A stretch of DNA of 64,000 bases from an uncultured Clostridia bacterium. GTDB taxonomy: Bacteria; Bacillota; Clostridia; Christensenellales; DTU072. The stretch lies in NCBI GenBank assembly GCA_944372095.1, contig CALVYG010000048.1, forward strand, positions 1 through 64,000, given 5' to 3'. Below the pieces are notes generated by a model. It saw nothing but the letters and a program-made list of their open reading frames with translations. It did not search any database and was not told the origin of the DNA. How positions within the stretch are numbered: the stretch's first letter is position 1; every line of letters starts with the position of its first letter. Below are positions 42,980 through 64,000 of the stretch, in pieces. The position numbers and the translations under genes were made by a program.

Positions 42980-43447
42980 TTATTTAAAATTTAAATATGG
43001 TCTTACCATACTAAGTGAACGCTTTTCATAAGTAACGCTTTTTCCTTTTTCTTCAATAGTAATATTTTCTACATCGTATGAAATGAGTTTCCCATGAATT
43101 TTTTTCTTTTTAGGCGCATACTCCGGAAGAAAAATAACTTCTATGTCTTCGCCTAGACTTCTTCTGTAATCGTCGTCTGAAATTATAGGCCTGTCGAGTC
43201 CGAGCGAAGAAACATTGAGGTAATAAAACTCACCTCGGGATACGTCGTTTTCATCCAATACAGAATCAACCGCCTTTGAAACCGTCTCACAATCATCTAT
43301 CGTTATCCCGCCTTTCTTATAGATGTAAAAAGTAAGATTATTCTCTCCGTAATTTTTCTTGTAAGATGTTTCAACAAGTTCATAGCCGAGGTTTTCTATA
43401 ATCGGTTTACATAATTCTTCGGCTATTGTTTCGATTTCATTACTCAA
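42980..43447 (-). CDS. rimP: Ribosome maturation factor RimP
   Basis: 30S assembly factor acting before uS5/uS12 joining. The 155-residue product has the N-terminal domain with ELVETSYKKNYGENNLTFYI and IDDCETVSKAVDSVLDEND, YLNVSSLGLDRPI, and a C-terminal Sm-like barrel. The start is TTG at 43447; no ATG or GTG is in frame nearby, and GGAG is a long 11 bases upstream. It is the first gene of the nusA-infB transcript with a promoter and a palindromic leader. Confidence 0.93.
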   Translation of the reverse strand: MSNEIETIAEELCKPIIENLGYELVETSYKKNYGENNLTFYIYKKGGITIDDCETVSKAVDSVLDENDVSRGEFYYLNVSSLGLDRPIISDDDYRRSLGEDIEVIFLPEYAPKKKKIHGKLISYDVENITIEEKGKSVTYEKRSLSMVRPYLNFK

Positions 43448-43485
43448 CTTTATTTATTCTCCTTTATAAAACACACCTTTATGCA

Positions 43486-43513
43486 AGAAAGTGGCTGATA
43501 TCAGCCACTTTCT
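43486..43513 (-). promoter_or_regulatory. 28-bp perfect palindrome in the rimP-nusA leader
   Basis: AGAAAGTGGCTGAT is followed directly by its exact reverse complement, centred on GATATC. It lies about 25 bases after the promoter -10 and 39 bases before rimP. Neither side has a T tract, so it is not a plain terminator. It could form a strong RNA hairpin or a cruciform or dimer binding site. Confidence 0.7.
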
Positions 43514-43538
43514 AGAAATTATCTATAAAGTTTATTTA

Positions 43539-43567
43539 ATCATATCATATTATTATCTTTTTGTCCA
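43539..43567 (-). promoter_or_regulatory. Promoter of rimP-nusA-infB
   Basis: TGGACA (43567-43562), 17 bases, TATGAT (43544-43539) on the minus strand, starting just past the stop of the polC-like gene. Confidence 0.65.
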
Positions 43568-43574
43568 CTATTTT

Positions 43575-45125
43575 TCATTTATTTTTTAATTTCATTAATT
43601 TAAGGAAAACCTGCGCATTTGCTGCGACGTCATTTATTGCTCTGTGCGCACCTACGAGATTTACATTCAGGGCAGAACATACATCCCCTAGTTTGTATTT
43701 GGAGAGTTTAAGTTTATTTTTTGCCAAAACCAATGTATCGATAAAATTATTATCGAATTCATATTTAACTTTTGCAGACTGTGCATTCAATAAAGGGATA
43801 TCAAATGTACTTATATTATGTCCGACAAGAGTACAATCTTTAACAAAACGATAAAAATCAGGAATAACTTCACTTAATTTAGGTGCATCCGCCACTGTTT
43901 CGTCATCAATATGCGTAATTTCGGTTATTCTTTTAGGTATGGAATTTTCAGGCTTTACAAAAGTTGAAAATTTTTCGGTGAACTGCCCGTCAACTATTTT
44001 TATTGCGGCAATTTCTATAATCTCGTCACTCTCGGTATTAAGTCCTGTTGTTTCCAGGTCGAATACGACATATACGCTTCCTTCGAACAATTTTAAATCG
44101 GTCATATCCACATCAAAAAAATCGTCTTGCGCAACATCTGTAAACGGTTCGGGCAAAACATACATATATCTTCCGTAATCTATATTGAAATTACTTTTCT
44201 TATTAATCGAGGCAAAGTTTATTTCGGCTTCCGCAACGGCATTTGCAATAAAGCAAAATCTGTTTTCAAAATTATCGTATTTATACGCTCCCGACATTAT
44301 AAGTTTTGCGTTATCAATGAAAACGTCGCTCCAAAGAAATTCCTTTTTCGGTCTGGCAAAAAATTTGCATTTTACACTCGCCGTAGTATCATTTAATAAA
44401 AAAGTAAAAAGCTCTTTTTCCGTTTCTCTTCCGCGCGAATCTTTTTTTACAATTCTCCGACTTTTAATGTCTGAAATAAAACCGCATAAAGTTAAAGAAT
44501 TATCTTCTTTCTCCTTTTCAATAACGTCAGAAATATATCTTGGATAATTCATTATGCCTTTTGCATAATACTTTATAATCTGAGTATCTATTACTCTTGT
44601 AGAAGAAACGAAAAACTTTTCAGGAAGCGCTTCCTTTTCGTCTGTGTTAGGCGTTTCAATAAAAGCTACTTCTACTTCTTCCATAAATTCTGTGTCAAGA
44701 TATTCTTGAATTTCTTTTGAAAGATTTATTCCTCGCACATATTCGCATACATATTTTTCCAAAGTTACGGAAACCGAACAATAATCAGATTCGGCATCAA
44801 ATATGTACTTTGCCGCGGCAAAAATGGGATATACAGATTGGTGTTCTTTGAAAATATATTCTATGATTTTATTTATTACCGAACTTTCATCCGCACTGGT
44901 CTTATAAAATCTTATATTCAAGCTAATATCGCTCGGAATTACGGATGACGCTACCGCTTTTATTTTATTTTTTAATCGCTCATCAAGAAATTTATCGTAA
45001 TCCGATGCTCTCACCATTAAAACGACATCGAGATAATGTCCGTTCAATTCTGCGGATTTAAACTTAAAAATTCTCTCTTCCGGATTTAATTTTTCGGAAA
45101 GCAGTCTGCAAAATTCGTTATCCAT
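43575..45125 (-). CDS. PolC-derived protein: N-terminal, OB and 3'-5' exonuclease domains only
   Basis: A 516-residue protein at the polC position (ispG, polC, rimP, nusA). Residues 1-200 resemble the PolC N-terminal domain. Residues about 205-300 form the OB fold (LCGFISDIKSRRI, FTFLLNDTTASVKCKFFAR). Residues about 345-510 are a DEDDh exonuclease with all four acidic positions and the histidine: FDLETTG, EIIEIAAIKI, HNISTFDIPLL and GAHRAINDVAAN. The PHP and polymerase domains, about 800-900 residues in normal PolC, are absent, and only 127 bases separate its stop from rimP. The start ATG 45125 has GGAG seven bases upstream; it overlaps the ispG stop. It could proofread in trans; a frameshift is not seen. 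Confidence 0.85.
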   Translation of the reverse strand: MDNEFCRLLSEKLNPEERIFKFKSAELNGHYLDVVLMVRASDYDKFLDERLKNKIKAVASSVIPSDISLNIRFYKTSADESSVINKIIEYIFKEHQSVYPIFAAAKYIFDAESDYCSVSVTLEKYVCEYVRGINLSKEIQEYLDTEFMEEVEVAFIETPNTDEKEALPEKFFVSSTRVIDTQIIKYYAKGIMNYPRYISDVIEKEKEDNSLTLCGFISDIKSRRIVKKDSRGRETEKELFTFLLNDTTASVKCKFFARPKKEFLWSDVFIDNAKLIMSGAYKYDNFENRFCFIANAVAEAEINFASINKKSNFNIDYGRYMYVLPEPFTDVAQDDFFDVDMTDLKLFEGSVYVVFDLETTGLNTESDEIIEIAAIKIVDGQFTEKFSTFVKPENSIPKRITEITHIDDETVADAPKLSEVIPDFYRFVKDCTLVGHNISTFDIPLLNAQSAKVKYEFDNNFIDTLVLAKNKLKLSKYKLGDVCSALNVNLVGAHRAINDVAANAQVFLKLMKLKNK

Positions 45126-46137
45126 TGATTTTCTCCGCAATAAGCTCAATCAAAGCATTTTCTATTTCGGAATTATTTACTGTTTTAAGTTTTTCGCCGT
45201 TTTTAAAAATAACGCTCCTGTATTTACCTCCCGCAACCCCGAAATCAGCACCTTTGGATTCTCCTATTCCGTTCACTGTACAACCCATAACTGCAATTTT
45301 TATAGGAATAGTATAATTTTCAGTGATTTTTTCGATTTTTTCCGCTAAACCTACTACATCTATCTGCGTGCGAGCGCAAGTCGGACAGGCTACTACTTCT
45401 ACAAAATTCTTATCCAATCCGACCGCTTGTAAAATTTGCTTTGCGGCATAAACCTCTTTTACCGGATTTGCAGTTAAACTGACTCTGATAGTATCTCCTA
45501 TCCCTTCAAGAAGTAAACTGCCTATCGCAATAGCCGATTTAACCAATCCGTACTTTTCGGTTCCCGCCTCAGTTAAACCAATATGTAAGGGATAATCGGT
45601 AATTTCATTTAATGTTCTATATGCTTCAACCGTTTCCCTTACATCACTGCTCTTTACCGCCAAAACAATTTTATCCCAACCCATATCTTCAATTAAATGG
45701 GCACAGTCCAAAGCAGAAACAGCCAATTCTCTCGGCGTTTTCAAATCTTTTGCCGAACCTTTATTTACACCTACCCGAATCGGAACTGAAAATTCAGCAC
45801 ATTTTTTTACAACTGCGCTTAATTCCTTTTTATTCATATTGTAAGGATTTATTCTGATTTTTGAAACACCGTTTTCAATTGCAATAATAGCAGGTTCGGA
45901 AGAATAGTGAATGTCTGCTATTATCGGAACAGGCGTTAAATTTACAATTTCTTTTAAGGCAAACGCACTTTCCTTATCCGGTACCGATACTCTTACCAAC
46001 TCGGCGCCCGCTTTTGCTAATTCTTTCACTTGTGCAACCGTACTTTCAATGTCTTTTGTTATTGTGTTTGTCATTGACTGTATAACGATATTCCCGGCGC
46101 CTAATTTAACTTTTCCTATGTTTATAATTTTTTTCAC
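45118..46137 (-). CDS. ispG: 4-hydroxy-3-methylbut-2-en-1-yl diphosphate synthase IspG (GcpE)
   Basis: Iron-sulfur enzyme of the non-mevalonate isoprenoid pathway that makes HMBPP. The 339-residue protein has the N-terminal TIM barrel (NIVIQSMTNTITKDI, ADIHYSSEPAI, RINPYN) and a C-terminal domain with the cluster cysteines in CPTCARTQID and MGCTVNGIGES. It overlaps rseP by four bases and the polC-like gene by eight. dxr in the same run supplies an earlier step. Confidence 0.96.
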   Translation of the reverse strand: MKKIINIGKVKLGAGNIVIQSMTNTITKDIESTVAQVKELAKAGAELVRVSVPDKESAFALKEIVNLTPVPIIADIHYSSEPAIIAIENGVSKIRINPYNMNKKELSAVVKKCAEFSVPIRVGVNKGSAKDLKTPRELAVSALDCAHLIEDMGWDKIVLAVKSSDVRETVEAYRTLNEITDYPLHIGLTEAGTEKYGLVKSAIAIGSLLLEGIGDTIRVSLTANPVKEVYAAKQILQAVGLDKNFVEVVACPTCARTQIDVVGLAEKIEKITENYTIPIKIAVMGCTVNGIGESKGADFGVAGGKYRSVIFKNGEKLKTVNNSEIENALIELIAEKING

Positions 46138-63850: not shown

Positions 63851-63856
63851 TATAAT
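63851..63856 (+). promoter_or_regulatory. -10 box of rnpB
   Basis: TATAAT lies six to twelve bases before the expected 5' end of the RNase P RNA. No good -35 element is seen at 16-18 bases; TTGATT at 63823 is 22 bases away. Confidence 0.45.
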
Positions 63857-63858
63857 AA

Positions 63859-64000
63859 GTTAGTCGATTGGTCGCATCGAAAGATGAGGAAAGTCCGAGC
63901 ATCAAAGGGTAGAGTGGCGGGTAACGCCCGCTGAAGGCGACTTTAAGGATAGTGCAACAGAAATAAACCGCGGTTTAACCGTAAGGGTGGAAAGGTGCGG
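63859..64000 (+). ncRNA. rnpB: RNase P RNA, type A, 5' part (cut by window edge)
   Basis: Catalytic RNA that trims tRNA 5' leaders. The conserved GAGGAAAGTCCGAGC is at 63886-63900. It is followed by AGGGTAGAGTGGCGGGTAACGCCCGC-type P5-P9 sequence (described, not quoted in full), AGTGCAACAG with AAATAAACCGC, and GTAAGGGTGGAAAGGTGCGG at the edge. A short AUC-GAAA-GAU stem replaces the long P3 of E. coli. The pattern is type A, not the Bacillus type B. The 5' end is approximate; about 140 bases are visible. Confidence 0.9.

Follow-up and report, generated by a model that had tools for sequence, protein, structure and literature searches.

A predicted PolC remnant without polymerase domains at the polC locus of uncultured Clostridia

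The locus ahead of rimP and nusA is the position of polC in many Bacillota. Three replicase systems have been described, DnaE1 alone, PolC with DnaE1 and PolC with DnaE3 (PMC12926913), and Timinskas and colleagues reported some Clostridia with DnaE1 only, as well as some clostridial PolCs without an exonuclease (PMC3919608). Subdomains of the PolC N-terminal domain (NTD) are related to domain V of tau, and a clamp-loader role has been proposed for them (PMC12926913, PMC3919608), whilst data from B. subtilis suggest that the PolC exonuclease corrects errors made by DnaE (PMC11890065, PMC12926913). The 2026 survey of these systems is based on complete genomes, and its text mentions neither a polymerase-less PolC nor any name beginning Christensenell- (PMC12926913). 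We found no description of a PolC reduced to exonuclease and NTD, in a search that left out most subscription papers and preprints.

The window, the whole 64,000-nucleotide stretch analysed here (from contig CALVYG010000048.1 of an uncultured Clostridia bacterium), carries at the polC position an intact open-reading frame of 516 aa (ATG at 45125) which, judged from its sequence, is a PolC remnant: it has the KH-like, tau-V-like NTD pair, the OB domain and a PolC-type exonuclease, and is without PHP and polymerase core. The features of the locus are as follows.

45118..46137, minus strand: ispG, upstream neighbour, preceded by rasP, dxr, cdsA and uppS
43575..45125, minus strand: PolC remnant gene (P0001), 516 aa, NTD, OB, linker with clamp-type motif and DEDDh exonuclease
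44652..45125, minus strand: N-terminal domain (residues 1-158), predicted to form a pair of beta-beta-alpha-alpha-beta units, the arrangement expected of NI/NII in PolC
44220..44585, minus strand: OB domain (residues 181-302), profile match to PolC OB, E 6e-13
44115..44129, minus strand: QDDFF (residues 333-337), beta-clamp-binding-type sequence motif in the OB-exonuclease linker
43605..44069, minus strand: DEDDh 3'-5' exonuclease domain, predicted catalytic residues D356, E358, D442, H494 and D499
43448..43574, no strand: intergenic gap between remnant and rimP, 127 bp, with a 28-bp perfect palindrome
42980..43447, minus strand: rimP, downstream neighbour, with nusA next

The gene order in the window is uppS-cdsA-dxr-rasP-ispG-[PolC remnant]-rimP-nusA-ylxR-ylxQ-infB; as the initial annotation had placed it, the remnant lies between ispG, which overlaps its start, and rimP, 127 bp downstream. 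That annotation also put a promoter and a palindrome in the 127-base gap: the gap and a perfect 28-bp palindrome (43486-43513) are there, but the promoter is no better than chance, with 7 promoter-like sites observed in the region vs 7.6 expected. A pattern scan found no terminator-like site in the gap, palindrome included. The order rasP-ispG-remnant-rimP-nusA is kept among relatives; at seven loci (L083, L084, L086, L087, L089, L094 and L095) rasP stands directly before the remnant and neither ispG nor dxr was found nearby, and these MEP isoprenoid genes may have been lost or relocated there with the remnant kept. In G018:C35 (L026, L069) the remnant is immediately followed, on its downstream side, by another PolC-type exonuclease match, perhaps a tandem duplication. 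Positions 63856-64000 hold the beginning of a class A bacterial RNase P RNA that the end of the window truncates.

The three domains were recognised with unequal ease. The exonuclease matches Pfam RNase_T (E 4e-38), has PolC models as its best curated matches (PRK00448, E 4.5e-48; TIGR01405) and clusters with PolC exonucleases in a tree, with modest support. Pfam OB models match 25 of 26 homologues, and the remnant-family profile matches the OB domain of the G. kaustophilus PolC structure 3f2b. Pfam gave no match to the N-terminal domain, which was related to PolC NTDs by profile-profile comparison of truncated forms from all families (prob 93.5, E 2e-7; 50 column shuffles scored no higher than 13.4, the real comparison 47.8); family f1 alone gave a marginal result (prob 11), clear only with all families included, and VIA-align was uninformative on the NTD, the matches listed being almost only to the exonuclease. 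An hhalign alignment (E 8e-62) has the whole remnant family collinear with the NTD, OB and exonuclease of PolC and the PHP halves as deletions, and PHP, palm, thumb and fingers, and the C-terminal clamp motif (QLSLF) are all absent from the gene; Pfam, curated models and profile comparison thus bear out the composition first assigned to it. An AlphaFold model of the window protein (mean pLDDT 86.6, pTM 0.49) contains a tandem pair of beta-beta-alpha-alpha-beta units along with an OB barrel and a DnaQ fold, although at this pTM the arrangement of the domains is uncertain; Foldseek ranks the PolC structure 9qpc as its best match and DnaQ domains of PolC next. The DEDDh residues are invariant across 26 aligned members, in agreement with the maintained frame and catalytic site described at the outset, and dN/dS is 0.04-0.07 among close pairs of active remnants with measurable dS. 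The exonuclease is the best conserved domain in f1 (identity 0.51 vs 0.33-0.35 for the others), so that catalysis is evidently under selection in the window organism.

The organism's own genome, 1.8 Mb in size and 95% complete, yielded no PolC polymerase part, nor did those of 39 family relatives; its single match is a 1162-aa DnaE adjoining whiA, and the family as a whole gives the same picture. A PF07733 match at C18:22786 was rejected as a weak chance match within a hypothetical open-reading frame. The truncated form is present in 40/40 genomes of the window's family (11 genera) and in about 161 of 297 sampled genomes of the order (matches below 1e-70), almost always at the same locus, and full PolC is absent from every truncated-form genome of family and order. 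These counts bear on whether the gene is a decaying relic, an assembly error or one piece of a split PolC whose polymerase half lies elsewhere: PHP and polymerase are truly missing, as such accounts require, yet one architecture recurs throughout the family and most of the order, the open-reading frames are intact with dN/dS of about 0.05, and no polymerase half was found, leaving this explanation with next to no credibility. The initial annotation had itself offered a split or relocated polymerase half, which is rejected for want of any match in own genome or family; it had also named two observations that would undo it, a full PolC elsewhere with this copy decayed in relatives, which is contradicted by the conservation of the truncated gene family- and order-wide, and a loss of about 2.6 kb in assembly, which is excluded because the same error could not recur in 40 genomes.

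Full PolC persists elsewhere in the order, with a match below 1e-60 in 94/297 genomes, 90 above the curated cut-off. At the 1e-60 threshold, a class sample of 393 genomes had 29 without a PolC match, and 19 of the 20 listed of these 29 belong to the window's order; outside it about 10 of about 369 genomes lacked a match. No remnant of this type was recognised outside the order at 1e-66, since the class-sample matches below that value there are all full-length PolCs of 1419-1456 aa. The relatives that named collections contain are MAGs of Clostridia, Candidatus Coproplasma, Gallimonas and an 'uncultured Christensenella' among them; the order is inferred to be GTDB Christensenellales. In the NCBI taxonomy Coproplasma belongs to Eubacteriales, and Gallimonas stands among the Clostridia incertae sedis. 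In a DnaE tree of 28 rows, whose root is not fixed by an outgroup, a 100/100 branch has the six full-PolC genomes on one side, so a single loss of the polymerase half suffices. We assume a loss and not a gain, since nearly all of the remaining class has full PolC.

Each genome sampled carries a DnaE, which from its PHP signature and the clostridial setting is assigned to DnaE1, and a DnaE-type replicase with the PolC exonuclease acting in trans, another of the histories first proposed, fits all the data, its function being inferred. The PHP site of DnaE1 (HHDHEHCDH) is intact in 28/28 sampled genomes, which rules out an inactivated PHP as the reason for keeping the exonuclease; DnaE1 may then proofread for itself, and the exonuclease need not serve it. 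As regards a loss of tau as the reason for the NTD, DnaX is present in 30/30 genomes checked, with open-reading frames mostly of 490-620 aa and no clear difference. The window organism's DnaE (G000:C27, L007:2059-5547) has an unusual clamp-type motif, GQFFFDFM, instead of the GQxSLFD or close variant found in most relatives, and one genome (G016:C10) has a second DnaE-like frame of 858 aa beside the normal DnaE.

The linker between OB and exonuclease carries the pattern Qxx[LMIFV][FLYW] in 58/65 active homologues, whilst residue shuffles of these linkers gave a mean of 5 and a maximum of 12; of the seven members without Q, the majority retain the hydrophobic pair behind a different first residue. 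The beta-clamp-binding consensus is QL[S/D]LF, positions 1, 4 and 5 being the most important (PMC3919608). The motif occupies the site of the first PHP half of full PolC, and full PolCs of the order have theirs at the C-terminus (QLSLF) and none in the OB-exonuclease linker. We read it as a newly gained motif of putative clamp-binding type; clamp binding itself is inferred, and there are no binding data.

Three lineages depart from the active form at the same locus: the DEDDh residues are missing in f16, in all but one genus of f19 and in a single genus of f29, and the open-reading frame, NTD, OB, locus and predicted DnaQ fold are kept (an f19 model has pLDDT 81 and matches to PolC DnaQ domains). 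A Qxx[LMIF] core is present in 15/15 dead forms against 5.6 expected by shuffling; their dN/dS was unusable as dS was saturated. Three changes are needed on the tree, and well-supported branches force at least two. Separate DnaQ-like proteins of 203-232 aa in G142, G153 and G244 (f29) and G057 (f19) might replace the lost activity, and a Pfam search found no RNase_T protein in G082, G289, G297, G249 or G210, five genomes whose remnant is a dead form. As the dead relatives keep the protein, proofreading alone does not explain its conservation, and its retention in three lineages makes a second, non-nuclease role as a clamp-bound part of the replisome likely, most economically that of an adaptor acting through NTD and OB, the interactions being inferred. 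The same forms, together with the genomes devoid of RNase_T proteins and a DnaE1 PHP site intact throughout the sample, would also support a main conserved role that is structural, a replisome adaptor binding clamp, single-stranded DNA and perhaps tau, with the exonuclease secondary or historical; against this, the exonuclease is the best conserved domain in other families, as the f1 identities illustrate, and we hold this possible but rather doubtful.

We consider it somewhat probable that the remnant serves a DnaE1 replisome as an accessory subunit tethered to the clamp, which proofreads in trans in the majority of lineages and has a second, non-nuclease role. The ancestor of a large clade in the order (probably Christensenellales) would have lost PHP and polymerase from its PolC, moved to DnaE1 as sole replicase and retained the NTD-OB-exonuclease part where polC had been, now as a protein of its own, whose linker would have gained a sliding-clamp-binding motif at the former first PHP half. 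In the window organism the remnant would most likely act in the manner of epsilon: QDDFF would tether it to the beta clamp, its tau-V-like N-terminal domains would perhaps hold it also to the clamp loader or polymerase and OB would perhaps contact single-stranded DNA, and it would excise mismatched 3' ends left by DnaE1; the NTD partner, DnaE binding and every other physical interaction are inferred, as is the proofreading activity. Strong purifying selection on intact catalysis in relatives, the clamp-type motif and the B. subtilis precedent make proofreading of DnaE1 in trans the best single explanation, against which stand the dispensable nuclease activity in the dead forms and a clamp motif that is only a short linear one, without its Q in 7/65 active members. 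The remnant might instead have left the fork as a general DNA-repair or RNA-processing nuclease, DEDDh nucleases being functionally versatile and a PHP-proficient DnaE1 not strictly needing an external proofreader; this is unlikely, as OB, PolC-type NTD and the newly gained motif are all kept together and P0001 is the only RNase_T-family and the only DEDDh protein found in the genome. More tentatively, and at slightly less than an even chance, half of PolC became a clamp-tethered subunit with a role beyond proofreading, three lineages of pseudo-exonuclease adaptors followed, some with no recognisable DEDDh nuclease left, and replicase turned stepwise into accessory.

Nature has provided, at one locus, a series of domain deletions that runs from full PolC through the active to the dead remnant, and on it the roles of PolC NTD, OB and exonuclease in trans can be tested directly. 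The PolC inhibitor ibezapolstat is described to act on the enzyme of low-G+C Bacillota (PMC13003532), and we predict that remnant-bearing bacteria lack the target of such inhibitors. Among known systems, the remnant resembles full PolC (B. subtilis, C. difficile) in the NTD-OB-exonuclease order, in homology over all three and in its position before rimP-nusA, but has no PHP, polymerase core, HhH or C-terminal QLSLF, and its clamp-type motif lies between OB and exonuclease. It resembles DnaQ/epsilon of E. coli Pol III, which carries its own clamp-binding motif, as a separate protein with an intact DEDDh site and a clamp-binding-type motif (known here from the letters only) in a DnaE1 system, but it is PolC-derived, with NTD and OB, its motif precedes the nuclease where that of epsilon follows it, and binding to the DnaE PHP has not been shown. 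Mycobacterial DnaQ is non-canonical and stands beside a PHP-active DnaE1 (PMC12926913), a comparable pairing of a DEDDh nuclease with an intact PHP proofreader, although it has no PolC NTD or OB and another origin. PolX-like proteins without the polymerase region exist (PMC12926913) and likewise belong to a polymerase family, have lost the polymerase and kept a nuclease part, but they are of the X family, with a PHP nuclease, and not chromosomal replicases. Next to the three described replicase systems, the clade as a whole shows a fourth, which combines DnaE1 with a PolC remnant.
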